IMG/VR virus record: IMGVR_UViG_3300035698_007269
Span: 1-32,713 of that record
Origin: a virus
Direction: 5' to 3' (one strand)
Length of the DNA stretch: 32,713 nucleotides
The notes under the pieces were generated by a model. The model was not told the DNA's origin. It searched no databases and was given only the letters and a program-made list of their open reading frames with translations. Of the stretch, positions 3,215-30,586 are shown piece by piece (the first letter of the stretch is position 1; every line of letters begins with the position of its first letter). The translations under genes were made by a program, and so were the position numbers.

Positions 3215-3226
3215 GGAGATAATAAT

Positions 3227-3802
3227 ATGAGTATGTTTAGTAATTGGTTGAACCCTGGACGTGCTTATGGTGAAGCCGGACGGACAGTTCAGCAGGGCTA
3301 TGACAATGCACATCAAACACAGCAGCCATTTTATCAAGGTGGTGTTAATGCTGGTGGAAAACTAACCGATGCTATGGGCCGCTTATTAAATCCAGGTGGC
3401 TTGCAAGATGAATGGAACAAAAGCTATGAGACGTCAGAGACTGCCAAACAAGATATGCGCCAAGCGGAAGATTCTGGTTTAGGTGCTGCAAGTTCTATGG
3501 GTTTGATGGGTTCATCGACTGCAACTCAAGCAATCCAATCCGGTGCGCATAACATTATGAACAAAGACCGCCAACAATACCTGGATGACATGATGAAAAA
3601 ATACATGACTGGTATTGGCATTGGCACAAACATGTATAACACAGGTGCAACCACAGCTGCCAATATGGGCCAACAAGATGTTCAGAGTGGGCAAGACCAG
3701 GCAAATCTTGGCGTTGGTCGTTCTCAAGCTGATGGTAAAAGGTTTGGTGATATATTGACTACTATAGGGAATTTAGCTGGTGGCATGGGGGCTTGGCAAT
3801 AA
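3227..3802 (+). CDS. Gly/Ala-rich virion protein, probable ejection (gp7/gp14-like) protein
   Basis: This 191-residue protein is low in hydrophobic core and rich in Gly, Ala, Gln and Ser (GLGAASSMGLMGSST, NTGATTAANMGQQ). This composition is typical of podovirus internal or ejection proteins that are released with the DNA. It has a very strong Shine-Dalgarno, AAGGAG at 3215-3220. The order gp4, gp10, small protein, then three internal-type proteins of rising size mirrors P22 gp4-10-26-14-7-20-16. No enzymatic motif is seen. Confidence 0.6.
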   Translation: MSMFSNWLNPGRAYGEAGRTVQQGYDNAHQTQQPFYQGGVNAGGKLTDAMGRLLNPGGLQDEWNKSYETSETAKQDMRQAEDSGLGAASSMGLMGSSTATQAIQSGAHNIMNKDRQQYLDDMMKKYMTGIGIGTNMYNTGATTAANMGQQDVQSGQDQANLGVGRSQADGKRFGDILTTIGNLAGGMGAWQ

Positions 3803-14778: not shown

Positions 14779-15134
14779 CATTAGAAGATATAGATCACAT
14801 CAAAGTAATTGATTGGTTCAGATACGACTACCCTTTACTAAAACAAGACCTACACCACTTTGCAAATCAAAGACGCTGCACTCCCATCGAAGGACGCAAA
14901 CTAAAAAGAATGGGTGTTATGCGTGGAGTATCTGACTTTTTTTTGGCAATTTCAAAAATGGGTTATCATGGCCTATGGATTGAACTTAAAGTTGGCAATG
15001 GAAAATTAAGCCAGGAACAGATAGACTTCTTAAAACGCAAAAACGAACAAGGCTATCTAGCTGTTGCCTTATGGGGCTTTGAAGATGTTAAAAAATTTAT
15101 TCAAGATTATCTGAATGAAAGTATTTCTTTTTAA
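14775..15134 (+). CDS. VRR-NUC domain nuclease
   Basis: The product is 119 residues. ATG 14775 is chosen because it overlaps the upstream stop as ATGA; an in-frame ATG at 14757 would add six residues. The VRR-NUC signature of the PD-(D/E)XK superfamily is visible: GVSDFFLAISKMGYHGLWIE (Asp of motif II) then IELKVGNGKLSQEQ (ExK plus Lys) and a final helix. Phage VRR-NUC proteins are Holliday-junction or flap nucleases, usually encoded beside a helicase. Here the helicase gene lies convergently with a 38-nt 3' overlap. Confidence 0.8.
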   Translation: MTLEDIDHIKVIDWFRYDYPLLKQDLHHFANQRRCTPIEGRKLKRMGVMRGVSDFFLAISKMGYHGLWIELKVGNGKLSQEQIDFLKRKNEQGYLAVALWGFEDVKKFIQDYLNESISF

Positions 15135-16785: not shown

Positions 16786-17410
16786 GGCATTCCTTTCTAT
16801 GAAAACACATCTTGCAAATATAAAACAAAGGATTGTCACTTATCCTGGGTGGCATAGTTTCAGCTTCATAAATTGATACAGCCTTGACTTCTAACTCTTT
16901 ATAGTAAACCTCGTCAAACTTCACTAATTCATCATGAAACTGAGCCGTGTTTTTATTAAACGCCAACACATAACATTTTTTTACACTGCTTAAACCCATA
17001 TAAGTTTGAACCTGGCCATAATAAGATTCATCCCAACCCTTAACGCCATCTTTAACTAACTTTTGAAAAGATGCATGATTCGCTGTTTTAATTTCAAGAT
17101 ATGCATTTAACTTAGGTAAATACGCATCAACATTACCGCGAAACCAATAGTAATCAGGATGAACCAATTCAGGATAAGGGCTATCCACCTTAGTAACCTT
17201 CATGACCTGAGCAAGAATATATATTTCTAATATTTTTCCAACGTCAAAAATCCGCTGGTTGCGGATAGGAATTTCTTTAGGTTTCTTGTTGTAAAAATCA
17301 AGCCAAATCTTTCGCCAACATTTACTACCAATAGAACTTGCACCAATATAATTACGTCTAGCTTCTGGAGACGGTACAAGGCCATCCAGAAGCTTTTGCA
17401 ATTTACCCAT
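16757..17410 (-). CDS. Cas4-like PD-(D/E)XK exonuclease, probable 4Fe-4S protein
   Basis: The product is 217 residues. The order of motifs fits the Cas4/RecB-nuclease family: Cys31 in GSKCWRK, Asp95 in RGNVDAYLP, Glu106-x-Lys108 in LEIKTAN, a QVQTYM motif at 133-138, and a C-terminal cluster Cys199, Cys202, Cys208 (ICKMCFHRKEC). One N-terminal and three C-terminal cysteines are the 4Fe-4S ligand arrangement of Cas4 and AddB. In phage operons such nucleases resect DNA ends for single-strand annealing, which matches the neighbouring Sak4-like ATPase and SSB. No Cas1/Cas2 or CRISPR array is present. Confidence 0.8.
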   Translation of the reverse strand: MGKLQKLLDGLVPSPEARRNYIGASSIGSKCWRKIWLDFYNKKPKEIPIRNQRIFDVGKILEIYILAQVMKVTKVDSPYPELVHPDYYWFRGNVDAYLPKLNAYLEIKTANHASFQKLVKDGVKGWDESYYGQVQTYMGLSSVKKCYVLAFNKNTAQFHDELVKFDEVYYKELEVKAVSIYEAETMPPRISDNPLFYICKMCFHRKECHEESKDVSS

Positions 17411-17991
17411 TAAAACGGTATGTCATCATCTAAATCAGTGACAGGTGCGCCAGGATTGCGGCTAAAAGCACTATTTACAGGGCCATTATTATGTTCAACA
17501 ACCATTTTTTCGCCAACGACACATTCAAAATCTTTTGAATGATGAATCTCACGGATATAATTACCTTCCATGAAGCCACCTTCAGATTTTGGCATCGACC
17601 ATTCAGCAATCTTTATACCAACGATATTGTTTTGTAAGTTGGCCAAGTCAACATTAGTAGGTTCATTGTTATGCGTAGGCTTATATCCACATAAAATCAT
17701 CAAACGCTTAAGCATATTTAAGTTGCGAGCGATAGCTTCTGGTTTACCTTCAAAAACTTTAATGCTTTGTTTAACTTCTCGGTTTTTAAAATCATCCGAT
17801 ACTATCTTATATATAACATCAATAGTCTTTTCGGCTGGTTTATATTGTGTAGCTTCTTTTGCTTCAACCTTACAAGACTTCACCATTGCTAATGCCGTAG
17901 TACCTTCTGGTATCACACTAAAATCTTGCAAAAATGAATCATCTTCATGACCTGTAATTTCTTTCCCAGTGGGACTTACCCAAAAACTCAT
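17410..17991 (-). CDS. phage ssDNA-binding protein (DUF669-like) with SSB-type acidic tail
   Basis: The product is 193 residues with a beta-rich domain typical of phage DUF669 proteins that accompany Sak4 or replicative helicases. The very end reads DLDDDIPF (residues 186-193), the acidic tip with a final Phe through which SSB proteins recruit partners. SD AAGGAG lies before the ATG. The stop overlaps the next gene as TAATG, giving coupled expression with the exonuclease. The role inferred is coating single-stranded DNA during annealing recombination and replication. Confidence 0.75.
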   Translation of the reverse strand: MSFWVSPTGKEITGHEDDSFLQDFSVIPEGTTALAMVKSCKVEAKEATQYKPAEKTIDVIYKIVSDDFKNREVKQSIKVFEGKPEAIARNLNMLKRLMILCGYKPTHNNEPTNVDLANLQNNIVGIKIAEWSMPKSEGGFMEGNYIREIHHSKDFECVVGEKMVVEHNNGPVNSAFSRNPGAPVTDLDDDIPF

Positions 17992-18011
17992 ATATAACTC
18001 CTTATCTAAAA

Positions 18012-18139
18012 TGGTGGTGGCTGACAGGATTCGAACCTATTATGCAAAAACCCTAGCCCCATCTCGTCCGCTAGCGACTGTTCTAATTATTTTGCTACCC
18101 ACCCGGCGATTGTGCTTTCCCCACAGCACCGCAACCACC
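18012..18139 (-). ncRNA. tRNA-like RNA with encoded CCA and no standard anticodon arm
   Basis: Numbered from the RNA 5' end (18139): nt 1-8 pair with 117-124 (8-bp acceptor, one G-T), followed by A125 and CCA 126-128. The T-arm is nt 100-116 with 5 bp and loop TTCGAAT. The D-arm-like hairpin is nt 11-28 with 5 bp and loop GTGGGGAA. The 8+5 bp acceptor/T stack is that of bacterial tRNA-Sec, but the middle (29-99) is about 70 nt and I found no 5-bp stem closing a 7-nt loop there. Other possible stems are 66-70/83-87 (CTAGC/GCTAG) and 45-50/91-96 (GCAAAA/TTTTGC). It starts 6 nt after the Sak4 stop and ends 20 nt before the SSB start codon, so it is inside the operon mRNA. Confidence 0.6.
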
Positions 18140-18145
18140 ATAAAA

Positions 18146-18916
18146 TTAACCTTTTTGTTTTTTCTGGTAAAATGGCACATATTTAACAATAGAGCCAAAA
18201 TCCATTGGCAATTCATCGGGCATATCAAACCGATTCTTGCTGACATGCGATTCATTTAAACCAACCTGCATTACCCTGTCTTGAGTGCTTTTTACCAATA
18301 CACGTCCACTTTCGGTTTCAGTTGTAAACGACTTCAATCGACAAAAAGCAACCAAATCAACATCATTGATATATACTTCCCTGGATTTATCATGATTCAT
18401 AACAACTGTATATATATCGTAATCTTCATTATCAGGTGACTTATGCTTTTTTACATCCAGATGCGATATAAAAACAACGCCAATACCCCGTTCACGAAAC
18501 TTATCAAATAACCCCTTTAAACTCCAATGCATCATTTGCGCCTTTGAAAAACCAGCACCATAACCACCACACGCTGAATTTAAACTAGAAGGCTTTTGAC
18601 CATTTTTATTAGGTGGTTCATTTTCCAAAATATGCTTGATAACCAATGAATCAAGCTTGGATATACTATCAAGCACAATAGTATCAAACGGTAATTTAGG
18701 TTCTTTAAGTAAGTTTTGGACTGCATTCCACACATCTTTAAAATTAGTCAGTAACGGTAAATGCTTCACGTCATGCAATCCGTTTTCTTCGGTTAACAAA
18801 AACAAAGGGTTAGGAAACTGACTTGCAAGCGTTGATTTACCAACACCAGGTTTACCATATATGGTAATTCGTGGGGGGTATGCACTCCCTGTTGTGACAT
18901 TATCTAAAATACTCAT
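18146..18916 (-). CDS. Sak4-type ATPase (AAA_24, RecA-like single-strand annealing protein)
   Basis: The product is 256 residues. Walker A GKPGVGKST is at 21-29. Walker B TIVLDS is at 80-85, followed by ISKLDSL. Later come GIGVVFISHLDVKK and the NDVDLVAFCR segment typical of phage AAA_24/Sak4 proteins. These RecA-fold ATPases promote single-strand annealing together with a phage SSB and an exonuclease, which are the next genes. The start overlaps the previous stop as TAATG. The stop is separated from the SSB gene by the tRNA-like RNA. Confidence 0.82.
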   Translation of the reverse strand: MSILDNVTTGSAYPPRITIYGKPGVGKSTLASQFPNPLFLLTEENGLHDVKHLPLLTNFKDVWNAVQNLLKEPKLPFDTIVLDSISKLDSLVIKHILENEPPNKNGQKPSSLNSACGGYGAGFSKAQMMHWSLKGLFDKFRERGIGVVFISHLDVKKHKSPDNEDYDIYTVVMNHDKSREVYINDVDLVAFCRLKSFTTETESGRVLVKSTQDRVMQVGLNESHVSKNRFDMPDELPMDFGSIVKYVPFYQKKQKG

Positions 18917-19323
18917 TAAACACGTTCCTTAATAGTTACGCTGGCTTTACCAGGTTTGACAGTAACCAATTCGCCTAGTGCCTCGCGAACGCTTAAAGGT
19001 GCTATTTGCATATATTGCTCACATAACTTTTTGTCTACAGTGTAAGAAACTGATTGTTTGATTGGGTTAAACTCACCAGGTAAATACACTGAACCTGATT
19101 CATAAGCTTTTTTGTCTAAACTATAGATTGATGGCGTTTTGCATTCAATTTTCCAAACATCATATTCATAAGATTTTTGGCCTTGATGATCATGATCTAA
19201 CAAAATAATAATATCTTGCGTCAACTCTTCTTTACGCTTAGTCAATTTAGCCAACTGAGCATTAATTTTTTTTAACTCCTTAATGCTATCAAACAAAACG
19301 CTCTCATTTTCTAACTCTCTCAT
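18916..19323 (-). CDS. first gene of the recombination operon, unknown (135 aa)
   Basis: Residues 1-48 are a charged coiled-coil helix (FDSIKELKKINAQLAKLTKR). The rest is a beta-rich domain with VWKIECKTPSIYSLDKKAYE and a basic C-terminus. Proteins of this layout (DUF7173-type, from memory) sit just before Sak4-like ATPases in other phages and may be accessory to recombination. SD GAGG lies before the ATG. A strong promoter with an operator lies directly upstream. Confidence 0.6.
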   Translation of the reverse strand: MRELENESVLFDSIKELKKINAQLAKLTKRKEELTQDIIILLDHDHQGQKSYEYDVWKIECKTPSIYSLDKKAYESGSVYLPGEFNPIKQSVSYTVDKKLCEQYMQIAPLSVREALGELVTVKPGKASVTIKERV

Positions 19324-19373
19324 AATTACCTCTTTTACTGTTAATAGTCCACGCCAGGTATTGACGTAGAACC

Positions 19374-19402
19374 ATAATAAAATAACGATTGATTTATGTC
19401 AA
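19374..19402 (-). promoter_or_regulatory. leftward promoter of the recombination/replication operon
   Basis: On the minus strand TTGACA (19402-19397) and TATTAT (19379-19374) are separated by 17 bp, a near-consensus sigma70 promoter. It is 51 nt before the ATG at 19323. The -35 lies inside the putative operator core shared with 24949-24960. Confidence 0.75.
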
Positions 19403-19417
19403 ACGTTTTTATACAAT
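19389..19417 (+). promoter_or_regulatory. rightward promoter of the cro-like gene, with operator core
   Basis: TTGATT (19389-19394) and TACAAT (19412-19417) are 17 bp apart, 31 nt before the cro-like ATG. The operator-like TCAAACGTTT (19399-19408) lies in the spacer and also covers the -35 of the opposed promoter, so a bound regulator would affect both directions. The preceding ATG (ATGTCAAACGTTT as a whole) is identical at 24947-24958 apart from position. Confidence 0.65.
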
Positions 19418-19447
19418 AGATTGAAATTAATTAACAAGTGAGACGTT

Positions 19448-19633
19448 ATGAAACCAGAAGAAGTGAAAAAACATTATAAGACTGCTTACAACTTTTACAA
19501 AGAAACAGGCATGTCACCTGCTAATATTGGTAATTGGGTTCGATGGGGATATATTCCTATTGCATCACAATTTAAAATTGAAGAAACAACCAATGGTAAA
19601 TTAAAAGCAAACTATGGGGATAGCAAAAAATGA
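19448..19633 (+). CDS. Cro/YdaS-like transcriptional regulator
   Basis: The product is 61 residues. A helix-turn-helix of the Cro superfamily is visible: a first helix (HYKTAYNFYKETG), then SPANIGNWVRWG as the recognition part, then IPIASQFKIEETTNGKLKA, the typical Cro-like end (IP...Q..IE..TNG.LKA). It is encoded first in the rightward operon, immediately downstream of a divergent promoter region with a palindromic operator core, the classic place of a cro gene. No CI-type repressor partner was found in the genome. It probably represses early leftward transcription and its own promoter. Confidence 0.75.
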   Translation: MKPEEVKKHYKTAYNFYKETGMSPANIGNWVRWGYIPIASQFKIEETTNGKLKANYGDSKK

Positions 19634-19740
19634 ATAGAGATACTTGGATTGATTTATTACAACTTATTTGGACTGGTACAGTGTATGGTTTTGCGTTGGT
19701 TGGTGTAGAAGATTTTGTTTATTATTTAGCTGGATATTAA
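19630..19740 (+). CDS. 36-aa micro-protein, possible membrane segment
   Basis: ATG overlaps the regulator's stop as ATGA. The product begins MNRDTWIDLLQLIWTG and continues with a hydrophobic stretch (TVYGFALVG) ending in FVYYLAGY. It could be a small membrane protein. The tight coupling to the regulator gene is the main argument that it is translated; no homologue is recognised. Confidence 0.45.
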   Translation: MNRDTWIDLLQLIWTGTVYGFALVGVEDFVYYLAGY

Positions 19741-19969
19741 AGGCGCGGAAACGACTAAAACCACGCCTTCTCTTCGCAAACTGTGGAGAGTGCAATTTTA
19801 GTATATCTATAATTTATATAAATGCAAAGATTTCCCTTAAAGTATCGAGGTTTTAAGGTCAATGCGCCATTGCGCGATGGGGTATTGTCGTTTTTTTATA
19901 GAGGGGTTACGACAATAAGCACAGGATTATAACAAAGTTATCCTTTTACGAAAAGCCTAAATTAACGTT
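19741..19969 (+). other. structured leader between the regulator and primase genes
   Basis: There are several inverted repeats: AAGGCG with CGCCTT (about 19739-19770), TATTGTCG (19883-19890) with CGACAATA (19910-19917), and a bulged hairpin AGG-ATAAC / GTTAT-CCT followed by TTTT (about 19923-19947). A -10-like TATAAT is at 19808-19813 but has no convincing -35. A 36-codon frame (19822-19932) exists but has no ribosome site. The segment looks like an untranslated regulatory leader with a weak terminator. Confidence 0.4.
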
Positions 19970-20104
19970 ATGCTTGTAGAGCTGTTTTTAACTTTAATTC
20001 CAGTAGGTTATATTGTGTGCATACTATTATTTTTTAGGGAGAATGCCAGCGGCATGGGTATTGACACTGGCGATCTATTTCAAGTGACAGGGAGTATTAC
20101 ATGA
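19970..20104 (+). CDS. 44-aa small membrane protein coupled to the primase gene
   Basis: The product starts MLVELFLTLIPVGYIVCILL, one clear membrane span, followed by a polar tail (FRENASGMGIDTGDLF). Its stop overlaps the primase start as ATGA. No strong Shine-Dalgarno is seen. It could be a membrane anchor for replication, a holin-like peptide or only a translational coupler for the primase; I cannot choose. Confidence 0.45.
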   Translation: MLVELFLTLIPVGYIVCILLFFRENASGMGIDTGDLFQVTGSIT

Positions 20105-21882
20105 GTATTGTAGCAAATAATGAACAAAAGCCAAGTTTTGGAGTAAATGAGGGTGTATGGGAATATCGAACGTTTGATAATAATTTATTAGGTTATTCAG
20201 TAAGGAAAAAAAAGGGGGTTGGTAAGCGATTTGAACCCTGGTCATATCAAGATGGGGTGTGGGTTAAGCGATGGTATGAAAATGAAAATAAGCCTTTGTA
20301 TCGATGTGAAGTGTTAAAAACCAATCCAACCGCACCCGTTTTATTGGTAGAAGGTGAAAAAACAGCGGACGCAGCTGCAAAGTTGTTTCCTGGGTTGGTG
20401 CCGGTTACTTGGCTTGGTGGTTCAAGTAGTGCTAAAAAAATTGATATTGAGCATTTGAAGGATAGGAAAATATATATATGGCCTGATAATGATGATCCAG
20501 GTTTTAAAGCACAACAACAGTTAAAAACAATTCTTACACCGATTGCTGACAAAGTTTATTGTGTAAACCCGTCACCGTTAAATTTACCAAAAGGATGGGA
20601 CTTGGCAGACTTTGACACTGACTATGATGAAATTGATTTTGATGAACTTCAAATGGCCTTAGAAGATGCCAAAAATAGAAAGCCAGGTTTTAACTTAATT
20701 ATAAAAGATAATTTCCCAGATTTAAGCGCAAAAGATAACCCCATTAACACAAGTGACAATATAGCCTACCTTTTAAAATTTTACGGTATTGAATTACGTT
20801 ATAACTTAATGACCAACTACCCTGAGTTTTCATCAAAGCAATTAGAGTTTAGTACAGTCAATGAAGCTGATTGTTTTTTCACAGAGATATCTAATTTATG
20901 CGTTAAAAATGGTGTTCCAAAAGTAGATCTTGGCCAGCACATTTTATATATTTCAGATCAAAATCGTTACCACCCAGCAATTGAGTTTATAAACAGCAAG
21001 CCGTGGGATGGCAATTCAAGAATCAATGAATTTTTAGACACTGTGAAAGCTGAAAATAATGACATGGCTAGAAAACTTATTTATAGATGGCTTTTAGGTT
21101 GTGTTGCTGCTGCTTTTAGTGATGAAGGCGTGTCACTTGAAGGTGTTTTAGTATTCCAGGGTAAACAAAAAATAGGTAAAACGCATTGGTTTATAAAGCT
21201 TGTGCCTGACGAATATCAGTTTTTAGCAAAAGATTCTCTTCACCTAGATCCATCCAACAAAGATTCAGTCATGGATTGCACCAGCGCATGGCTAGGCGAA
21301 CTTGCCGAAATTGACGGTAGCATTAAAAAATCAGACGTAGCAGCACAAAAACAATTTATCACACGCCAAGCAGATTTTTATCGAGTCCCATTCGGTAAGC
21401 GCATAAGAGGCGTACCCAGGCGAACCGCATTTTTTGGATCAGTAAACCCGAATGAGTTCCTATCAGACGAAACCGGAAACAGACGCTACTGGACAATAGC
21501 AGTAGAACACATCAACCACAACCACACAATTGACATGCAACAACTATGGGCTGAAGTTCAATGCAAGTTAGATCAAGGTGAACAATACAGGCTTACCAAT
21601 GATGAACAAGATATGGTTAATCAAGAAAACGAACATCACTTGCCGATGGATCCATTAGAAGAAGCCATCCTAAATAAATTTAAATGGGATCTCGATAAAA
21701 CTCACTACGACAAACCCATGACCGCCTCAGAAATCCTAGTTTTACTAGGATTCTCAATTACAGAGCAACGAATGGGACGCATGGCGAGAAAGTGTAACGA
21801 AATTTTAACCAGGCTAACAGGCAAACGGAGCAAAAAAAGCAACGGGAAAAGACTTTTTTACCTTCCAATGCAAAAAGTTTAA
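20101..21882 (+). CDS. primase-helicase, Toprim plus VapE/VirE-type ATPase
   Basis: The product is 593 residues. Residues 80-140 hold a Toprim-like fold: VLLVEGEKTADAA and IYIWPDNDDPGFKAQQ, with the Glu and Asp-x-Asp metal ligands. The central and C-terminal part is a VapE-type (PF05272) P-loop domain: Walker A GKQKIGKT at about 354-361, AWLGELAEIDGSIKKSD, then RVPFGKRIRGVPRRTAFFGS and NEFLSDETGNRRYW. Such proteins serve as the phage replicative primase-helicase with host polymerase; no DNA polymerase gene is present. It is the last gene before the repeat-rich candidate origin, whose first hairpin also works as its terminator. Confidence 0.88.
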   Translation: MSIVANNEQKPSFGVNEGVWEYRTFDNNLLGYSVRKKKGVGKRFEPWSYQDGVWVKRWYENENKPLYRCEVLKTNPTAPVLLVEGEKTADAAAKLFPGLVPVTWLGGSSSAKKIDIEHLKDRKIYIWPDNDDPGFKAQQQLKTILTPIADKVYCVNPSPLNLPKGWDLADFDTDYDEIDFDELQMALEDAKNRKPGFNLIIKDNFPDLSAKDNPINTSDNIAYLLKFYGIELRYNLMTNYPEFSSKQLEFSTVNEADCFFTEISNLCVKNGVPKVDLGQHILYISDQNRYHPAIEFINSKPWDGNSRINEFLDTVKAENNDMARKLIYRWLLGCVAAAFSDEGVSLEGVLVFQGKQKIGKTHWFIKLVPDEYQFLAKDSLHLDPSNKDSVMDCTSAWLGELAEIDGSIKKSDVAAQKQFITRQADFYRVPFGKRIRGVPRRTAFFGSVNPNEFLSDETGNRRYWTIAVEHINHNHTIDMQQLWAEVQCKLDQGEQYRLTNDEQDMVNQENEHHLPMDPLEEAILNKFKWDLDKTHYDKPMTASEILVLLGFSITEQRMGRMARKCNEILTRLTGKRSKKSNGKRLFYLPMQKV

Positions 21883-21933
21883 TTTTTTTTAAATTATTTT
21901 ATAGGGCACCATAGGGCTCCATAGGGCACCAAT

Positions 21934-21967
21934 AGGGCACCAGAATTTTTTTTGGTGCCCTTTTTTT
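21934..21967 (+). terminator. terminator after the primase-helicase gene
   Basis: AGGGCACC (21934-21941) and GGTGCCCT (21954-21961) form a perfect 8-bp stem with a 12-nt T-rich loop, followed by T to 21967. It is built from two copies of the repeat unit. Confidence 0.75.
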
Positions 21968-22050
21968 ATGCCCGTAAATAAAGGGCTACAGCAACATAAG
22001 GGCACCAAAAGATTTAAATAAAATAAAATAAAAATACTATATAACCTATA

Positions 22051-22069
22051 CTGTATACCGGTTATACAG
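22051..22069. repeat. inverted repeat CTGTATA-CCGGT-TATACAG
   Basis: Perfect 7-bp arms with a 5-bp centre in the AT-rich part of the candidate origin; AACCT and AGGTT flank it in the same symmetry. It is probably a dimeric protein-binding site. A degenerate half (GGGTATACGGG) follows at 22080-22090. Confidence 0.5.
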
Positions 22070-22302
22070 GTTGTTCGATGGGTATACGGGATAGGTAACG
22101 CATCTCTATAGAAAAAAAGTGCCCTATGTGCCCTTTTGTGCAGTAGCCCTTTTATATCAAGGGTTACTTGAGGGCGCCGCCAATTTTTTTTGGTGCCCTA
22201 CTTTACAGTTTTGCAACATTTTTGGTTTTAAAAACATCACAATGGTTAATTAATTTCAGTATTTTGTCTTTTGCTGTTTTTTAAGTTTTTGCGTTAGAAT
22301 TT

Positions 22303-22311
22303 TGCTATAAT
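22303..22311 (+). promoter_or_regulatory. extended -10 promoter
   Basis: TGCTATAAT is a perfect extended -10 element. No consensus -35 lies at 17 bp, which extended -10 promoters can do without. It is 34 nt before the ATG at 22345. Confidence 0.55.
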
Positions 22312-22344
22312 TTAAAATTGGAAATTTGACATTTGCTGGTTTTT

Positions 22345-22548
22345 ATGAAATTCGATGAATATTGTAAAAAAAACAATATTAACTTGTTATTAGACGATAA
22401 AAGATTTTTAAAAAGGCATCTTAAAATGATTTCTAAGGCGTCCAGGAAGGACGTAGTAAGACGTTATGTTGATATATGGGTAAAGACCAGGGGTAGTGAC
22501 AATGAAAAGCGTAGAGAAGCTAATATTTGGCTTAGGTCAATTTTTTAG
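22345..22548 (+). CDS. small basic protein, unknown (67 aa)
   Basis: ATG 22345 is preferred; a TTG at 22333 in the same frame has no ribosome site. The product is helical and basic, with DKRFLKRHLKMISKASRKDV, RRYVDIWVK and a C-terminal KRREANIWLRSIF. The final (R)REAN.WLR pattern recurs in small phage/prophage proteins I remember beside replication genes. It stands alone on the plus strand between the candidate origin and the convergent small-gene operon, with its own extended -10 promoter. It could be a DNA-binding replication accessory protein, but this is a guess from charge and place. Confidence 0.55.
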   Translation: MKFDEYCKKNNINLLLDDKRFLKRHLKMISKASRKDVVRRYVDIWVKTRGSDNEKRREANIWLRSIF

Positions 22549-22599
22549 CAAGGGGCTTAATATGCTGTGAGCTTGCATTTTTTATCGTTGCCCACAGAG

Positions 22600-22608
22600 T
22601 TATGCACA
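22600..22608 (+). promoter_or_regulatory. DnaA box
   Basis: TTATGCACA matches the bacterial DnaA consensus TTATNCACA at every position. It lies in the short gap between two convergent genes, about 400 bp from the iteron-like cluster. Confidence 0.5.
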
Positions 22609-22625
22609 GATTTTGGGGATAGATT

Positions 22626-22856
22626 TCAATGGACGGTGCAATCATCGGTTTTTTGTAAAATGTGAAGGCTGACACCTTCATCACATGTTTCAATTTTAAC
22701 TTTGTATTCTACTCCGTAACATTGACCCAGGCGGTTAAAAACAGCTTCTAGTAAATCGTAGTTAACAATATCGCTAATAGCACGCAAGGCTATAAATGAT
22801 GCTTGATTAATAATTTCATTTTTGTCGCCTAGCATGTCTTCTAGCAGGTCTATCAT
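22626..22856 (-). CDS. last gene of the leftward small-gene operon, unknown (76 aa)
   Basis: The product is helical in its first 45 residues (IDLLEDMLGDKNEIINQASF) with a beta C-terminus (VEYKVKIETC). Its ATG follows the upstream stop directly. No family is recognised. It is likely an early host-takeover or accessory protein by position. No terminator hairpin is seen between its stop and the DnaA box. Confidence 0.55.
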   Translation of the reverse strand: MIDLLEDMLGDKNEIINQASFIALRAISDIVNYDLLEAVFNRLGQCYGVEYKVKIETCDEGVSLHILQKTDDCTVH

Positions 22857-23057
22857 TCATTTAAAAAGCCTCACTATAACAATTACCCCAAGAATCGCAC
22901 ACCCAACAAAAATGCCAACCTGCTCCAATGCACCGACAAAATCATCAATTCTTTTTTGGTGGTAATCTTCCTGGGCTTTATCCAAGCACTTAATCATGGT
23001 TTGCGTTGTATCTTGCCGTTTGCATTTTTCTATCATTAGGTTGTATTCTTCAATCAT
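22857..23057 (-). CDS. small protein with C-terminal membrane span (66 aa)
   Basis: ATG 23057 is chosen (GGAAGA 7-12 nt upstream); an ATG at 23072 adds five residues and a longer overlap. Residues 1-45 are charged helix. The end is a transmembrane segment (QVGIFVGCAILGVIVIV) followed by RLFK, giving a tail-anchored topology with the soluble part probably in the cytoplasm. A small anchored protein with a charged helix could be a spanin-like, antiholin-like or host-inhibition protein. None of these is shown. Confidence 0.55.
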   Translation of the reverse strand: MIEEYNLMIEKCKRQDTTQTMIKCLDKAQEDYHQKRIDDFVGALEQVGIFVGCAILGVIVIVRLFK

Positions 23058-23247
23058 TGTGTAATCTTCCAAAGTTTATTTCATGTAACTTGATGGATGG
23101 GTTAACTTTAAGTGCCCAGGTAAAAACTTCCTGCATTGTATCTGTTGAATTAAATACTCTTGTTGCAAACCCATCCTTGTATGTATCAATACCTGTTTGC
23201 GTTGTAAAAGGAACATTTACAACTATATCGTCTTTTTGACTTGTCAT
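23050..23247 (-). CDS. small unknown early protein (65 aa)
   Basis: Beta-rich start (DDIVVNVPFTTQTG) and a helix (TDTMQEVFTWALKV). The start overlaps the upstream micro-gene's stop as ATGA, and its end overlaps the next gene by 8 nt. Unrecognised. The dense coupling with its neighbours argues that it is translated. Confidence 0.5.
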   Translation of the reverse strand: MTSQKDDIVVNVPFTTQTGIDTYKDGFATRVFNSTDTMQEVFTWALKVNPSIKLHEINFGRLHND

Positions 23248-23363
23248 CTTAAAATATCCATAGTTAAATCATCTTTTTGACCTTCCCAATACTCAATACA
23301 TTTTTCAATCAAATCGCTTTTGTTTTTAAAAACGCAATTCAAAGGGATATCAGTAACTTTCAT
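23244..23363 (-). CDS. 39-aa micro-protein, unknown
   Basis: It begins MKVTDIPLNCVFKNKSDLIE, then KCIEYWEGQKDDLTMDILR. ATGA overlaps occur at both ends, with the genes at 23360-23488 and 23050-23247, which is the main evidence that it is real. Soluble and charged; no family recognised. Confidence 0.5.
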   Translation of the reverse strand: MKVTDIPLNCVFKNKSDLIEKCIEYWEGQKDDLTMDILR

Positions 23364-23488
23364 TCATCGGTTTTTACCTCTTTATAAAGCGTGCCAGTAA
23401 CAGCACGCAAAATTATCTCACTCACAAACAACAACGGAAACCACATTATCGCTTGCACCAATAAGCACCTTTTTAATATTTTAATCAT
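23360..23488 (-). CDS. 42-aa small membrane protein
   Basis: A basic N-terminus (MIKILKR) is followed by a membrane span (CLLVQAIMWFPLLFVSEIIL) and a polar tail ending KEVKTDE. ATGA overlaps at both ends. A single-span peptide of this kind could be a holin-like or membrane-remodelling factor. The early leftward location makes a late lysis role less likely. Confidence 0.5.
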   Translation of the reverse strand: MIKILKRCLLVQAIMWFPLLFVSEIILRAVTGTLYKEVKTDE

Positions 23489-23964
23489 AACCTTTCAGCC
23501 AGTACCGCCATTACATCAGTAACATGCATATTAAAATTAGCGTTTGTATTAGTATTATCAAGCGTGTGATATTCCCATCCTGTTATATCTTTTCTCATAT
23601 GCGTTAAAATCTCTTTAAATGTCATGTTTTGTGGGTGCTCTTTTAAAAACAAGTCAAGTACCAGCTTTTCACTTAATGTTAGCCCGTTGCTTTCTTTGTA
23701 TAATTCATCCAGATTGCTTCCGTCCAAAGTGTCTTTAGTTTCAATTTGACTATAAAAACGGTTTCTTTCGGGGTATTCATGTATAAACTTTAAAAGTGTT
23801 TTAAAATCTTTTAGGTATACTTCGATATCGTGGTTCATATTAAATACATGAATCCACGGCATTTCTGCACTATAAAGCCGCATGTCGTAATCACCCACAA
23901 AAAACCGATCAATTGTCTCTTTTTGGTTGTTTGTTAAATTGTTGTACTCTCTTAATAAATTCAT
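23485..23964 (-). CDS. unknown early protein (159 aa)
   Basis: The largest product of the small-gene operon. Mostly helical, acidic and soluble, with LTLSEKLVLDLFLKEHPQN followed by TFKEILTHMRKDI in the second half, which could be a winged-helix-like or simple helical domain. The N-terminal half has NNLTNNQKETIDRFFVGDYD. No catalytic motif is seen. Coupled by ATGA overlaps on both sides. Confidence 0.6.
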   Translation of the reverse strand: MNLLREYNNLTNNQKETIDRFFVGDYDMRLYSAEMPWIHVFNMNHDIEVYLKDFKTLLKFIHEYPERNRFYSQIETKDTLDGSNLDELYKESNGLTLSEKLVLDLFLKEHPQNMTFKEILTHMRKDITGWEYHTLDNTNTNANFNMHVTDVMAVLAERL

Positions 23965-24251
23965 TCTTTCCCCCTTTTTAACCAGTTATTATAATTTTCA
24001 ACACTACCCCATGCGATGCTTGGAATGTTGTTGTAACAATGCGCAATAAGTGCAAACATATTCTGTGTATTAAAAGCGTCCGCACGTCCGAACGCTTCCT
24101 TCAAATTGTTGGTCAATACCGCCTCTAGGAACCACCCTGGCGGCATTTGGTGGTAAATGTAATTGTTGAGCGCGTTCATTGTATGTTCTGGTACGCGCTG
24201 TGCTTTGTTTTGTTCTTCAGCTTTCATAAGCTCGACTAGTTCTTGATTCAT
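23961..24251 (-). CDS. small conserved-type phage protein (96 aa)
   Basis: The core, MPPGWFLEAVLTNNLKEAFG followed by RADAFNTQNMFALI and IAWGS, resembles a small protein family I have seen in many phages of Pseudomonadota ('y.PpG.FL.AvL.NDL..A..rAD..N...l..i'). Function unknown to me. All-helical, soluble. ATGA overlaps with both neighbours. Confidence 0.6.
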   Translation of the reverse strand: MNQELVELMKAEEQNKAQRVPEHTMNALNNYIYHQMPPGWFLEAVLTNNLKEAFGRADAFNTQNMFALIAHCYNNIPSIAWGSVENYNNWLKRGKE

Positions 24252-25215: not shown

Positions 25216-25650
25216 ATGGCAGGCGGACGACCGACAATATATAGCGAGGAACTAGCCGTACGTATTTGCGAGCTTGTGGCTACGAGCAGTCTTGGGTTGA
25301 TCAAGCTTTGCGCTAAATATGACGAACTTCCCGTCAAAGATACGATCAATCAATGGCGTTATCGATACCCTGGATTTTCGGCCTTGTATGCAAAAGCAAA
25401 GTTAATTCAGGCTGACCGATTAGCTGAAGATATTCTTGATATAGCTGATGAAGCGCGCGGTGATATCAAACTCGATGATGATGGAAACGAGGTTTTGAAC
25501 TCTGAATTTGTCGCGCGTTCACGTTTGAAAATTGATACCCGAAAATGGCTTGCTGCTAAACTATTGCCCCGTCAATATGGCAATCATACAGAAGAAAACA
25601 AAAACGCTAGCGATTCTCTTGTTGAAAAGCTTATTGATAAGTTAAAATGA
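25216..25650 (+). CDS. terS: terminase small subunit
   Basis: The product is 144 residues. The start AGGRPTIYSEELAVRICEL is the typical small-terminase helix-turn-helix entry ('GRP..y....a..i...i..G.sl'). A DTINQWRYRYPGFSALYAKA segment follows, the recognition helix plus linker found in this family (W...PeF...Y..Ar). The C-terminal half is helical with RSRLKIDTRKWLAAKLLP, also typical (Rl..d.rkw.askl.P). TerS recognises the packaging site and recruits TerL. It is coupled to the next gene by ATGA. Confidence 0.85.
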   Translation: MAGGRPTIYSEELAVRICELVATSSLGLIKLCAKYDELPVKDTINQWRYRYPGFSALYAKAKLIQADRLAEDILDIADEARGDIKLDDDGNEVLNSEFVARSRLKIDTRKWLAAKLLPRQYGNHTEENKNASDSLVEKLIDKLK

Positions 25651-25823
25651 TAAGCAACGATCCTTTTTCAAAAATAAGCTTGCTGTTTGGTTGTGCTGTT
25701 GTGCCTTCAAATATCCCAACTTTTAAAGATATTAATACAATTGAATACGTTAATGGTAACGACAAACAACCAAAAGTTATAACTGAAACGGTGATGTTTC
25801 TTGAACAAAATGACAAACGATGA
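25647..25823 (+). CDS. 58-aa protein between terminase subunits
   Basis: ATG overlaps the TerS stop (ATGA) and the end overlaps the TerL start by 14 nt. It begins MISNDPFSKISLLFGCAV and ends LEQNDKR. No family recognised. It may couple translation of TerS and TerL; the compact arrangement argues that it is translated. Confidence 0.45.
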   Translation: MISNDPFSKISLLFGCAVVPSNIPTFKDINTIEYVNGNDKQPKVITETVMFLEQNDKR

Positions 25824-28311
25824 AAAAATAATACACGCATTAACTGACTTTCCAACGTTTGCGCATAACTTCTTAAACATTCGCACCAAATCAGGTGCTA
25901 TTAAACCATTCAATCTCACACGCGCCCAACAATATATACATGGACGCTTAGAAGCTCAAAAAAAAGAGGCTGGAAAGGTACGAGCTATTATATTAAAGGC
26001 TAGGCAGCTTGGTTGTTCTACGTTGATTCAGGGCCGTTTCTTTCACAAAGTAATCACACAGCGCGGTAAAAAAGCTTTCATTCTCACACATGAAGCCGAA
26101 GCCACCAAAAACTTGTTTGCAATGACTAAGCGTTATCATGACGGTTTGCCCGATGGCCTGGCACCTAAACCAGATGCGTCAAGCGCAAAAGAATTGAATT
26201 TTAGCTCGCTTGATTCAGGTTATGCGGTTGGCACGGCAGGCAATAAAGCCGTTGGCCGTTCTCAAACCATCCAGTTATTCCACGGTAGCGAGACAGCTTA
26301 TTGGCCCCATGCAGCCGAGCATAGCAAAGGGATAATGCAAGCGATATCAAATGAAGATGAAACAGAGATTATAATAGAATCCACAGCAAACGGGATTGGC
26401 AATTACTTTCATCAATTATGGTGTTCTGCATTAAGTGGAGAAAGCGAGTACCAGGCGATATTTGTTCCTTGGTACTGGCAAGATGAATACACGCATACTT
26501 ATAAAGATATAAAGCCACCGCCATTGTCGGACGATGAACAGCAATTGCTTGATAATTATGCGCATGATGGCATGACGCTTGAACATATTTATTGGCGCAG
26601 AATAAAGATACGTGAGTTTAGCAGTGACTATGAAGAGGGTGAGAAGCTTTTCAAGGTTGAATATCCCGTATCAGCACAAGAAGCTTTTAGAAACACAGTT
26701 GATGATACTTTCATTAACTCGAAGTATGTTGCTATTGCAAGGAAAAATAGCATTGATACGGATTCAGCTTTGATTATTGGTGTTGATCCAGCCATTGGCG
26801 AAAACGACCGCTGCGCGATTGTCCGAAGACGCGGACGCAAAGCATACAACATCGAAACGCTACGCAATCATAACACTATGCAGCTGGCAGGACGTTTGAA
26901 GCGCATTATTGAAACAGAAAAACCATACAGAGTATATATTGATTGTATTGGCATTGGTGCAGGAACTACCGACCGATTAATTGAAATGGGATACAGTGAA
27001 GTTATTGGCGTCAATGTTGCACGTAGCGCAAGCGACAAAGAGCTATATGGCAATCAGCGTGCAGAATATTGGCAACGCATGAAAGACTGGCTTATGCAGG
27101 AGATGGATGTTGATATACCGGACAGTGACGAACTAGAAGCAGATTTGTGTGGACTCGGTTACAAGCATAAAAGTAACGGACAATTGTTGATTGAAAGTAA
27201 AATTGATTTAAAAAAACGCGGCATGCCTTCACCTGATTGCTTTGTTGCAGGAACTTTAATTGATACTAAAAAAGGCAAAGTGGCAATTGAATTAATAAAA
27301 GCAGGTGATTATATTGCAACACCTTTTGGTTATCAAAAAGTAATTAAAAACTGGGAGTCATTTAGCAACAATATTACCACTCTTTCGTTATCCAATGGAA
27401 AAACATTAAAAGGCAAAGGAAGCCATAGAATATTTACATGGGACAAAGGCTGGGTTAACCTAGACGCTTTAAGCTTGTCTTTTAAGTTAGAGTTTAATTC
27501 ATGGTTAAAAAAAGCGAAGTGGAAGTTCCTAAGTTTATTTTATACAAGGGACAAAAGTTTAGACTTCAAACATCAGGTAGATATTATCAGTCAAACAAAA
27601 AAAATGCGCCCTACAGACTTCTTCACAGGAAAATTTGGTTCGACAATTTTGGTGAAATACCAAAAGGCTGTCACATTCACCACAAAAATGGTGACTGGAC
27701 TGATAATTCAATTGATAACCTTGAATGCATTGATGGCAAAAAACATATGCAAGAACATATGCGCAAACGAATGCAAGACCCATAATTTTACAAAAAAACA
27801 ATGGAGTCACAACAAAAAGCCATTATTGCAGCCGCAAAATGGCATAAAGACAAAACAGGAACAAAATTATTATCGAATATTGCAAAAAAAGGATGGCGAG
27901 ATAGGGAAAAATTGCCAGCAGGAAGGTGTGAAAGCTGTGGGAATGAGTTCAAATCAGTATTTGCCAATCGAAAATCAGTTAGATATTGCTCAAGAAAATG
28001 CAGCCTTAAAGGCGTTTATGCCAAACAAAAAACAAAAGAAAAAAACTGCGCTTGGTGCAATAAAAAGTTTATGGCCAATAAATACAGGGATGTTAAATGT
28101 TGCAATAAAACATGTTCAAACAGAAAGCGCGCCTATGACCAGCGTATACAATCTAACCCTTGAAAAAGAAAATGTTTATTACGCCAATGGGATTTTAGTT
28201 GCCAATTGCGCAGACGCTTTAATGTTGACGTTTTCAGGTGGTCAAACAGTTGCTATTGATGATAATTTTGCTACACCAATACCAGAGCGTTACAATTCTA
28301 TGTTTACTTGA
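25810..28311 (+). CDS. terL: terminase large subunit precursor containing an intein
   Basis: The 833-residue frame includes a 323-residue intein (477-799); the spliced protein would be 510 residues, normal for TerL. The ATPase part shows KARQLGCST (63-71, Walker A-like) and ETEIIIESTANG (Walker B/coupling region, about 185-196). The RNase H-like nuclease shows Asp326 in IIGVDPAIG, Asp378 in VYIDCIGIG and Asp476 in SPD. Asp476 is the last residue before the intein, and the C-extein continues with CADALMLTF. Splicing therefore decides whether the active site is complete. ATG 25810 is used; a TTG at 25801 is weaker. The portal gene follows. Confidence 0.9.
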   Translation: MTNDEKIIHALTDFPTFAHNFLNIRTKSGAIKPFNLTRAQQYIHGRLEAQKKEAGKVRAIILKARQLGCSTLIQGRFFHKVITQRGKKAFILTHEAEATKNLFAMTKRYHDGLPDGLAPKPDASSAKELNFSSLDSGYAVGTAGNKAVGRSQTIQLFHGSETAYWPHAAEHSKGIMQAISNEDETEIIIESTANGIGNYFHQLWCSALSGESEYQAIFVPWYWQDEYTHTYKDIKPPPLSDDEQQLLDNYAHDGMTLEHIYWRRIKIREFSSDYEEGEKLFKVEYPVSAQEAFRNTVDDTFINSKYVAIARKNSIDTDSALIIGVDPAIGENDRCAIVRRRGRKAYNIETLRNHNTMQLAGRLKRIIETEKPYRVYIDCIGIGAGTTDRLIEMGYSEVIGVNVARSASDKELYGNQRAEYWQRMKDWLMQEMDVDIPDSDELEADLCGLGYKHKSNGQLLIESKIDLKKRGMPSPDCFVAGTLIDTKKGKVAIELIKAGDYIATPFGYQKVIKNWESFSNNITTLSLSNGKTLKGKGSHRIFTWDKGWVNLDALSLSFKLEFNSWLKKAKWKFLSLFYTRDKSLDFKHQVDIISQTKKMRPTDFFTGKFGSTILVKYQKAVTFTTKMVTGLIIQLITLNALMAKNICKNICANECKTHNFTKKQWSHNKKPLLQPQNGIKTKQEQNYYRILQKKDGEIGKNCQQEGVKAVGMSSNQYLPIENQLDIAQENAALKAFMPNKKQKKKTALGAIKSLWPINTGMLNVAIKHVQTESAPMTSVYNLTLEKENVYYANGILVANCADALMLTFSGGQTVAIDDNFATPIPERYNSMFT
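27501..27785 (+). CDS. HNH homing endonuclease, N-terminal part, nested out of frame in the intein
   Basis: The product is 94 residues, in the frame -1 to TerL/intein. The HNH_3-type core is LLHRKIWFDNFGEIPKGCHI, then His60-His61-Lys-Asn63, then NSIDNLECI (about 69-77). Upstream in this frame are TAA codons at 27483 and 27495, so it starts at ATG 27501 (weak AGAG as ribosome site) or is entered by a -1 shift on the A-AAA-AAA run at 27507-27513. It ends in TAA at 27783, and the same frame continues after it with the C-terminal zinc-finger part. The role is expected to be homing of the intein by cleaving intein-free terL. Confidence 0.8.
   Translation: MVKKSEVEVPKFILYKGQKFRLQTSGRYYQSNKKNAPYRLLHRKIWFDNFGEIPKGCHIHHKNGDWTDNSIDNLECIDGKKHMQEHMRKRMQDP
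27507..27513 (+). promoter_or_regulatory. possible -1 ribosomal frameshift site
   Basis: In the intein frame the codons are TTA-AAA-AAA-GCG, so A-AAA-AAA is a canonical X-XXY-YYZ heptamer. A -1 slip leads from the intein N-half directly into the HNH frame at AGC (27513). It may instead be a homopolymer in which one A was lost. Confidence 0.4.
27801..28163 (+). CDS. homing endonuclease, C-terminal zinc-finger part, same frame after a TAA
   Basis: The product is 120 residues, with its own ATG 15 nt after the TAA. An AAAKWHKDKTG...GWRDREK segment precedes two Cys4 zinc-ribbon motifs: Cys43/Cys46/Cys63/Cys67 and Cys83/Cys86/Cys100 or 101/Cys105. In phage HNH_3 endonucleases these follow the HNH core in one chain, so the two frames are halves of one gene. 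The TAA could be read through, the protein could work in two pieces, or the gene could be newly inactivated. The last codons overlap intein block F in the other frame. Confidence 0.65.
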   Translation: MESQQKAIIAAAKWHKDKTGTKLLSNIAKKGWRDREKLPAGRCESCGNEFKSVFANRKSVRYCSRKCSLKGVYAKQKTKEKNCAWCNKKFMANKYRDVKCCNKTCSNRKRAYDQRIQSNP

Positions 28312-28348
28312 TAATATAGCTAAATAGTTGATACAAGGATTTTATATC

Positions 28349-30586
28349 ATGGCACGAAAAAACAAAGAAATTGCTGACGAAACAAAAGATAATATAGCAA
28401 AATGGCATGGCTATTTTTCAATTAACAACAAGCAATACCACCAAGAATTTGCTTTTGTCATGGGTGGCCAGTGGGAAAAAGACGAAATGTCTGCATTACG
28501 CCAAAACAAAAAGATACCATTGATATCTAATAAACTTGGAGTGCTAGCCAATCATTTGCTAGGTGAGCAGCGACAAAACACGCCAAACCTTCAAGTTGTG
28601 CCAGATGAAACAGTGCCAGAACAAACAGCTGAGGTGCGCGAAGCTTTGGTCAAAGATATATCACTAGATAGTAAATCAAGTGTTGTATATCAAACGGGTT
28701 TTCAATCTGCAATTATTGGCGGGTATGGTGCGTTTCGAGTTAACCATGATTATGTTGATGCCAATAGCTTTAACCAGGAAATAAATATACTTGAAATAAA
28801 TGACCCCACTCAAGCATTCTGGGACGTTGGCGCAACTAGTAAAACCAAAACCGACGGCATGTTTTGCGGTTTGAAAACTCGCATGTCACGTAAGAAGTTT
28901 AAGCAAGTGTATGGTAAGCGTGTGAATAGTAAAATACAAAATCATACGTTAAATGATGACACTGTGATGGCTGATAATGATACCATATTGGTTGTTGACT
29001 ATTACAAGCGCACATATAAAACCGAAAGGATTAAGCAGTTATCAAATGGTCGCGTGATAAAAAATGATGAATATAGGGAAATGCGCGAGTATCAAGAGCA
29101 ACTTGAAAAGCTTGGCATTGGTTCACCTGGTATTATGGCTGAGGTTGATTATCAGCAGGTCGAAGAAGTAGCCGAGCAAGCACCACAGCCAGGCATTGAA
29201 ACGCCTGAAGACTTGCAGCCTAGTGAGACACCAAACGTTATCAGTGAACGCGAGCTTGATGAAAATGACACGCCTTTGATTGACTTGACTACTGGTGAAC
29301 CTGTAAGCATTGTTGATGAAAGGGACGCGCCTAGTTATGTGATTAAGTATTACAAGATGGCTGGTGATTATGAACTTGAGTCTAGTGAATTCCCGGCTGA
29401 ATTGTTGCCGATTATATTTGTTGATCAAAACAGCTATTACGATAAAAACGGCAAGCAATTTTGCAGACCATTTTTTAAAGATGCCAAAGACAGCCAAAAA
29501 TATTTAAACTATATACGCACACATTCAGCCTATTTGCTGAAAGTATCGCGTAATGACCAATTTTTGGTTAGTAAAGAAAACGTGCGCAGCAAAGACACGC
29601 AAGCTATTTGGAAAGACCCAGGTAACTACCAGGGCGGTTTGTTCTTTGATAAAGATAGCGACGGATTTGTTCCCCAACAATTGCGCCCCCCTGAATTATC
29701 ACAGTCACTCAATCAACAATATCAATTAGCATTGAGCGATATTCAATCAAGTACCGGGATGTATGATACTCAAGTTGGTGAAAAAGGAAATGAGATATCA
29801 GGTAAAGCCATCGATGCAAGAACCGAACGCGGTAGTTACAATACCTATGTCGCGTTTGATAGTTTGAATCGTGCCATTGGTGTTGCTGGTGAGATTGTTA
29901 ACCAGATGATTCCGAGCATATACGACACAGAAAGAACCGAAATGTTAACTATGGCTGAAACTGGAATGCCACAACCTGTAACATTAAACCAACAAGATGA
30001 TGATTATGGAACTCGTGTTAATAATGATATGCGTGAAGGAAGTTATAAGATACGCTTATTGCCTGGGCCATCAAGTGACGGACAACGCCAGCAAGCAATG
30101 GAATCCTTACAAATGGTATTGCAAGCTAATCCGCAACTATTTAATATGATTGCTGATTTGTACGCTGAAAACTTACCATTGAAGAACAACATTAACTTGC
30201 GAAACAGACTTAAAACACTTGTACCGCCTGATATTATTGAAGCTGGTAAGACAGGGAAATCACCACCGCCAGCACAACAAGGCCCAAGCCCTGAAGAACA
30301 GGCTATGCAAGCACAAATGCAAATTAAGCAGCAAGAATTGCAAATTAAAATGCAAGATTTGCAGTTTAAACAAGAAAAGTTGGCTATGGATTCGGAAAAA
30401 TCAAAAGCTGAGATTGCACAGAAATGGCAGGAACTGGAAAACTCACGCATTGAAGCGGCAGCAGAATTAGAAGAAACACAATTACGGTATCAAGCAGAGA
30501 TGCACAAAACCAATGCAGAGGCTAATATTTCACATGCAAGAAACATCACGGATATTTTAACACATTTACCACAACAAAAAGGCTGA
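28349..30586 (+). CDS. P22-like portal protein
   Basis: The product is 745 residues; ATG 28349 has AAGGA upstream, while a TTG at 28328 is rejected. P22 gp1 is 725 residues. Family-like features are an N-terminal helical part with QKIPLISNKLGVLANHLLGE in character (a 'N.i...v....G' portal entry), a mid-part DPTQAFWDVGATSKTKTDG, and FFDKDSDGFVPQQLRPPELS near the crown. The C-terminus (about 650-745) is a long Gln/Lys/Glu coiled coil, matching the P22 portal barrel. An acidic Pro/Glu/Gln-rich insert lies at about 270-320. The dodecameric portal is the DNA channel and docks TerL, encoded just before. Confidence 0.85.
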   Translation: MARKNKEIADETKDNIAKWHGYFSINNKQYHQEFAFVMGGQWEKDEMSALRQNKKIPLISNKLGVLANHLLGEQRQNTPNLQVVPDETVPEQTAEVREALVKDISLDSKSSVVYQTGFQSAIIGGYGAFRVNHDYVDANSFNQEINILEINDPTQAFWDVGATSKTKTDGMFCGLKTRMSRKKFKQVYGKRVNSKIQNHTLNDDTVMADNDTILVVDYYKRTYKTERIKQLSNGRVIKNDEYREMREYQEQLEKLGIGSPGIMAEVDYQQVEEVAEQAPQPGIETPEDLQPSETPNVISERELDENDTPLIDLTTGEPVSIVDERDAPSYVIKYYKMAGDYELESSEFPAELLPIIFVDQNSYYDKNGKQFCRPFFKDAKDSQKYLNYIRTHSAYLLKVSRNDQFLVSKENVRSKDTQAIWKDPGNYQGGLFFDKDSDGFVPQQLRPPELSQSLNQQYQLALSDIQSSTGMYDTQVGEKGNEISGKAIDARTERGSYNTYVAFDSLNRAIGVAGEIVNQMIPSIYDTERTEMLTMAETGMPQPVTLNQQDDDYGTRVNNDMREGSYKIRLLPGPSSDGQRQQAMESLQMVLQANPQLFNMIADLYAENLPLKNNINLRNRLKTLVPPDIIEAGKTGKSPPPAQQGPSPEEQAMQAQMQIKQQELQIKMQDLQFKQEKLAMDSEKSKAEIAQKWQELENSRIEAAAELEETQLRYQAEMHKTNAEANISHARNITDILTHLPQQKG

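Follow-up and report, generated by a model that had tools for sequence, protein, structure and literature searches.

The terL locus and its intein

The window analysed here is the 32,713-nt stretch that makes up virus record IMGVR_UViG_3300035698_007269 (positions 1 to 32,713). Its gene for the terminase large subunit, terL, carries an in-frame intein, and the bases that encode the middle of this intein also encode, in the -1 frame, an HNH/zinc-finger endonuclease. Based on the analyses described below, this TerL intein very probably belongs to a distinct and widespread family whose homing endonuclease, instead of being a domain of the intein, is encoded by a gene of its own that overprints the intein middle in the -1 frame. 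The relevant features, all on the plus strand, are the following.

25801..28311, +: terL open reading frame (ORF) of 836 codons, open throughout, with the intein in frame
27238..28206, +: intein of exactly 323 codons, from Cys1 to Asn323, with the +1 residue, Cys, at 28207-28209
27238..27492, +: N-terminal half of the Hint domain (Hint-N), approximately residues 1-85
27493..28104, +: intein middle as read in the TerL frame
28105..28206, +: C-terminal half of the Hint domain (Hint-C), residues 290-323, ending ...VYNLTLEKENVYYANGILVAN, conserved in all relatives
27495..27497, +: HNH-frame TAA shortly before the HNH start
27501..27785, +: first part of the HNH ORF, 94 codons with an ATG start, in the -1 frame relative to terL, ending at a premature TAA
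27507..27513, +: run of seven A residues (A7), a possible site of indels or slippage, not conserved in relatives
27783..27785, +: premature TAA in the HNH frame, where the aligned relatives read through
27801..28163, +: second part of the HNH ORF, 120 codons in the same frame as the first, with a linker and the zinc-finger DNA-binding part
27927..28001, +: first of two CxxC...CxxxC zinc-binding motifs in the HNH protein (conserved C136/C139/C154/C158)
28047..28115, +: second CxxC...CxxxC zinc-binding motif (nearly invariant C173/C176/C191/C195)

The boundaries of the intein are exact, because the closest TerL relatives (L205 and L206, with 407 of 510 extein residues identical) have an empty site that reads SPD/IADSLMLTF, compared with SPD/intein/CADALMLTF in the phage record. 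The element is inserted in the TerL nuclease motif, between SPD and CADAL; since it breaks this motif, TerL function should need splicing. The site is empty in all 80 of the closest TerLs, taken from viral contigs, so that its occupancy appears sporadic, which is the pattern expected for a mobile element. Pfam matches to Hint_2 (E 5e-7) and Intein_splicing (E 2e-8) correspond to the two intein ends, both close to the curated cut-offs, with Hint_2 above and Intein_splicing just below. Cys1, the terminal Asn and Cys+1 are present in the phage record and in nearly all relatives. As the original prediction had proposed, TerL and intein are open in one frame across the whole of 27238-28206. The record therefore does not have the two host ORFs of a fractured gene or split intein, terL being one open frame.

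Structure predictions draw the same line between ends and middle. The AlphaFold model of the phage record's intein has confidence scores (pLDDT) of 91-98 for residues 1-90 and of 93-96 for the last 33 residues, with values of 69-82 at approximately residues 91-130 and mostly 38-60 at approximately residues 131-280. Foldseek comparison of this model returned matches to solved inteins, so that Pfam, AlphaFold and Foldseek all point to a Hint fold built from an N-terminal and a C-terminal half. The HNH frame of a relative (L022) gave a model with a mean pLDDT of 94.7. In these models, therefore, the ends are predicted with confidence as a Hint fold, the TerL-frame middle as disordered and the other frame as an enzyme.

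The endonuclease frame and its premature stop

A family HNH profile covers 27522-28136 (E 6e-73) with one TAA inside, and the Pfam HNH_3 domain was matched at approximately 27618-27749 (E 9e-14), within the first part of the HNH ORF. The HNH_3 motif with its catalytic His and Asn residues was found in the phage record and in 38/38 relatives. In alignment A5, which comprises 38 HNH sequences, H54, H55, N67, H76 and H80 are invariant, and the zinc cysteines vary little or not at all. The TAA at 27495-27497 indicates that the HNH protein is not a simple extension of upstream reading in its own frame.

The overprinted layout that had been proposed from the sequence was upheld; the proposed continuity of the endonuclease frame was not, because the TAA at 27783-27785 divides the catalytic part from the zinc fingers. 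The phage record consequently lacks a complete HNH ORF that includes the DNA-binding part. Almost all relatives have an uninterrupted frame here, and 112 of 116 nested elements show no break within the first 85% of the HNH frame. In the intein frame, the same TAA is part of His-Asn-Phe and leaves TerL uninterrupted. The nuclease of this phage is thus probably inactive, a consequence that the original prediction had not drawn; production in two pieces is less likely. Its intein, which TerL needs, stays intact.

A family of overprinted inteins

Relatives were found by protein-level searches alone; at the DNA level, none were found in the phage collection. Using the intein-frame alignment as the query against viral contigs (sample 1), we obtained at least 474 relatives, of which the best 80 were examined. 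The same layout and offset were common to 79 of these 80, to three annotated phage records and to the phage record itself, the exception (L087) being a truncated match. Most of 17 matches in bacterial and archaeal genome contigs, including a Bacteroides isolate and archaeal genome bins, also had this layout. An independent sample of 80 loci was collected with the HNH protein as the query (sample 2). Approximately 60 of these loci are flanked by Hint halves that lie in the +1 frame of HNH, with no stops in that frame, and the remainder are free-standing or cut by contig ends.

Pooling of the samples gave 116 non-redundant nested elements, mostly in terL, and 18 non-redundant free-standing copies. 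The Hint/HNH offset is uniform across all 116. Nested HNH genes have been missed in annotation: for the phages TJE1 (L197), Highwayman (L018) and LS06-2018-MD07 (L017), the only gene annotated over the element is terL, with the intein as part of it. Given its recurrence in over 100 diverse phages and prophages, the double-coded layout is a real, conserved intein architecture and not an error.

Three nested loci show irregularities. In L139 (160-1045), the Hint-N and Hint-C frames differ relative to HNH, probably owing to an indel in the Hint-N part. L058 (3501-4460) and L106 (4001-4957) have one intein-frame stop each, which could represent errors, split forms or decay.

Selection on the two reading frames

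The original prediction estimated that an open companion frame would arise by chance with a probability of about 1e-5. This value was too small: given the HNH protein and the codon usage of the phage record, 3.4 companion-frame stops are expected, and the frame is open at P = 0.0066 for this record alone. The strong evidence for selection on the open frame lies at the level of the family. When codons were shuffled synonymously inside each HNH ORF as a null model, one intein-frame stop was observed over the HNH ORFs of 80 elements versus 218 expected. The same shuffle gave 1758 expected stops in the third frame, where 1705 were observed, and is therefore well behaved. For the 18 free-standing HNH relatives without Hint, the companion frame contained 108 stops versus 106 expected, which makes them a clean control. 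The intein or companion frame is open in 114/116 nested elements and in 0/18 free-standing copies (Fisher P 2e-20). The proposal that selection keeps the intein frame open is thus borne out. Approximately 2.7 stops per element are expected in the intein frame versus approximately 22 in the other frame; the intein frame is hence the intrinsically stop-poor companion of the HNH family, which could account for the single offset found.

Substitutions between close pairs separate the two constraints. Changes in the Hint halves fall at intein codon position 3; those in the overlap fall at intein position 2, corresponding to position 3 of the HNH codons. For the pair L022/L002, the changes at intein codon positions 1, 2 and 3 number 14/5/35 in Hint-N and 19/71/29 in the overlap. 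Since the changes in the overlap are at HNH third positions, the overlap is selected as an HNH protein, and the main requirement on the intein frame in this region is that it stay free of stops. The shared bases are subject to two requirements, the amino acid sequence of the HNH protein and the absence of stops in the intein frame.

Expression of the endonuclease and proposed mechanism

The HNH start is an ATG in 91 of 100 elements and is mostly located at about intein codon 86-93. Shine-Dalgarno pairing is stronger at HNH starts than at random places in the same elements (37% in the best tenth, Kolmogorov-Smirnov P 2e-8), and AAGGAGG-like sequences precede the HNH start in several elements. 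Additionally, many elements have HNH-frame stops 0-12 codons upstream of the HNH ATG. The HNH protein is therefore likely to be made by internal initiation at its own ATG.

Based on these observations, we propose the following mechanism. Translation in the terL frame would produce TerL carrying a Hint domain with a largely unstructured linker between its halves; splicing out of the Hint domain would then leave intact TerL. Initiation at the internal ATG, in the other frame, would release the HNH/zinc-finger endonuclease as a free protein. By cutting terL alleles that lack the intein, this enzyme would cause the element to be copied into them during repair. In this phage, the TAA has split the endonuclease into the ORFs of 94 and 120 codons and left the intein intact.

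Splicing is suggested by the motifs, the insertion in the nuclease motif and the predicted fold, and homing by the enzyme family and the sporadic distribution. Several points weigh against this reading. The residue before the final Asn of the phage record's intein is Ala, the usual His, which many relatives have, being absent, and block B is only partial. At the phage record's own HNH start the Shine-Dalgarno signal is weak (rank 0.35), and its HNH frame bears the TAA. Many family elements come from metagenomic contigs, and an intein-frame query favours open intein frames, a bias most of which is removed by the HNH-based sample.

Alternative explanations

The offset could in principle be produced by two compensating sequencing or assembly errors in an element whose endonuclease is truly in frame, and the A7 run at 27507-27513 is the kind of place where indels tend to occur. 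The original prediction would have been overturned by such errors in the A-run and a compensating position. This objection fails, because the 116 non-redundant relatives, from unrelated contigs, the isolates TJE1, Highwayman and LS06-2018-MD07 and a Bacteroides isolate genome, share the same offset without the A-run, and relatives have HNH-frame stops just upstream of the HNH start. At the family level the sequences exclude an indel artefact, and we consider this explanation exceedingly improbable. The nonsense codon in the HNH frame of the phage record would also fit a decaying canonical intein, in which a once in-frame HNH domain was shifted out of frame and is now junk, its openness reflecting chance and selection on TerL. 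However, the overlap evolves as an HNH protein across the relatives, the residues for catalysis and zinc binding hardly vary, if at all, and the HNH frame is broken early in only 4/116 elements, which makes decay very improbable as an account of the layout. A group I or other RNA intron carrying an HNH ORF, with coincidental openness of the host frame, comes to mind because the top structural match of the HNH protein is I-HmuI, and phage HNH homing enzymes of the I-HmuI type reside in group I introns. Nevertheless, no Rfam family was matched at the gathering score in the 32,713-nt window, so that no conserved group I intron RNA structure was detected there; the Hint halves are in frame with terL in every nested element and have a predicted Hint fold; and host-frame stops are absent far beyond chance. 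We regard the probability of an intron as practically negligible.

Two further alternatives concern how the endonuclease is made. Programmed -1 frameshifting, yielding a TerL-N::Hint-N::HNH fusion in place of a protein with its own start, would agree with the -1 offset of all elements and with the A7 run, which lies near the right place in the phage record. The run is nevertheless absent in relatives, an ATG at a near-constant place and the Shine-Dalgarno enrichment fit internal initiation, and in the many elements with HNH-frame stops shortly before the ATG, slippage further upstream would not reach HNH; frameshifting is thus quite improbable. Finally, the two HNH pieces of the phage record might form a working two-subunit enzyme through re-initiation at the ATG at 27801, with the element still active. 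The zinc-finger part past the TAA is still well conserved, and this ATG lies 15 bases after the stop, but the split is seen in no other sampled relative and the four broken copies among the 116 resemble ordinary decay, so that we consider a two-piece enzyme unlikely. An intein with an endonuclease gene overprinted on its middle and started internally remains the explanation that we favour.

Split, free-standing and shortened relatives

It had been suggested that the element may be an intermediate between a contiguous and a split intein. A split form does exist: in Vibrio phages 1.238.A, 1.238.B and 1.245.O (L199, L200 and L203; approximately 1980-3440), the TerL intein is split and its halves enclose an intact HNH ORF. 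In these phages, a stop terminates the reading of TerL-N and Hint-N, and the HNH ORF lies in the same relative frame as in the overprinted elements. Hint-C and the end of TerL form a separate coding sequence, which has its own start after GGAGG and is annotated as a hedgehog/hint domain protein. At least 13 host-frame stops occur across HNH. The Vibrio phages 1.238/1.245 thus have the two host ORFs with intein halves of a fractured gene; a search for further split forms with the Vibrio HNH returned only the same phage. A step towards a split intein thus does occur and lends the suggestion partial support, but the overprinted form is a stable, widespread and long-lived state in its own right.

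Free-standing HNH relatives lie beside terL or terS-terL in phages BP10, CL2, SN1, EauM-23, PAE1 and Shemara and in some contigs of the TerL clade of the phage record. In this clade, free HNH genes are located directly downstream of an intein-less terL in L229 (2374-2982), L230 (1493-2101), L232 (2759-3367) and L236 (3984-4583); it is possible that these are neighbouring genes that home at terL. The Acinetobacter phages Highwayman and BP10 were compared for an empty site, but their TerLs are too distant (27% identical, 108/401) for the comparison to be useful. Shortened inteins of approximately 640-650 bases, which keep part of the HNH region, were found in L044 (1831-2481), L045 (3501-4151) and L116 (923-1561) and probably represent deletions on the way to mini-inteins.

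Free and nested copies are intermingled in the HNH tree, with at least six changes forced by the starred branches and with poorly resolved deep branches; the free copies L126 and L229 are neighbours of the phage record's HNH. A nested copy needs an open companion frame and free copies are without one, so that the change from nested to free would be the easier direction. Hint and HNH distances correlate (Mantel r 0.55, and 0.39 after removing TerL), as expected if both travel as one unit.

A broader reading, which we hold tentatively and with rather less than even confidence, is that these elements form an old and widespread class of phage inteins whose endonuclease has always been a separate overprinted gene. 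The class would have a single origin, because all elements share one offset, and would repeatedly have yielded free HNH genes near terL and split inteins. The double use of the bases would be kept because an indel that kills the endonuclease also destroys an essential host protein.

Relation to known systems

The usual description of an intein is a single polypeptide into which the endonuclease is nested in frame, and split inteins with free endonucleases are treated as a separate oddity. Canonical inteins such as that of SPbeta bnrdE, with a LAGLIDADG endonuclease, resemble the TerL elements in having the endonuclease at the usual insertion place between Hint-N and Hint-C. In bnrdE, however, the endonuclease is translated in the Hint frame and stops abound in the remaining frames, whereas in the TerL family the HNH is a separate product and always lies in the offset +2 (-1) frame. 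The bnrdE intein was considered as a precedent for an out-of-frame HNH and rejected, since its LAGLIDADG endonuclease is in frame and yosQ lies in bnrdF and not in the intein. Fractured genes and split inteins with a free-standing endonuclease between the halves were reportedly described by Dassa et al. in 2009 (NAR 37:2560). As in those systems, the endonuclease of the TerL elements is a separate product between intein halves, and the Vibrio relatives have that very layout; the intein of the phage record differs in being contiguous and in sharing its bases with the endonuclease gene. I-HmuI (PDB 1U3E) is the best structural match of the HNH protein in Foldseek (probability 0.99 but E 0.15). 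It is borne by an intron and not by an intein, the similarity is limited to approximately 88 columns, and the C-terminal zinc-finger parts differ.

The nearest published case found is the ShiLan domain (Arsenault, Gosselin, Gogarten 2025, PMC11855218), in which an HNH endonuclease is hidden within the DNA methylase of a phage. There, too, the HNH/zinc-finger endonuclease lies out of frame within an insertion whose host frame stays open, homing is presumed, and an HNH start at insertion position 18 implies the same relative (-1) frame as in the TerL elements. The ShiLan insertion has neither a Hint nor a splicing domain and remains part of the methylase; the phage record has such a domain, and the TerL element, in a different host gene, places a conserved Hint around the hidden gene, so that the host protein can be restored. 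For overlapping frames, the ShiLan paper cites a preprint on actinobacteriophage inteins of non-canonical architecture (Gosselin et al. 2025, 10.1101/2025.01.02.630785) and 'Non-canonical inteins' (Gorbalenya 1998). Both may overlap with the TerL family, so that an intein with an overprinted endonuclease may already have been described.

An endonuclease encoded as a second gene on the same bases, in a large family, represents a third intein state. Overprinting explains why annotation misses such enzymes, as in TJE1, Highwayman and LS06, and implies that unusually long annotated TerLs in such phages harbour a removable insert and a hidden gene. The overprinted family gives split inteins and free-standing homing genes a natural way to arise. 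It also provides a ready test set, matched free-standing controls included, for the evolution of overlapping genes.

Other features of the window

The terL gene of the phage record is flanked by the following ORFs.

25216-25650: terS-like ORF (Sf6_terminase, E 6e-27), on one flank of terL
28328-30586: P22-like portal (E 2e-100), on the other flank of terL

Replication and recombination genes occupy both strands of positions 15097-24000, with a helicase, a Cas4-type exonuclease and a Sak4-like protein on the minus strand and a primase/helicase on the plus strand.

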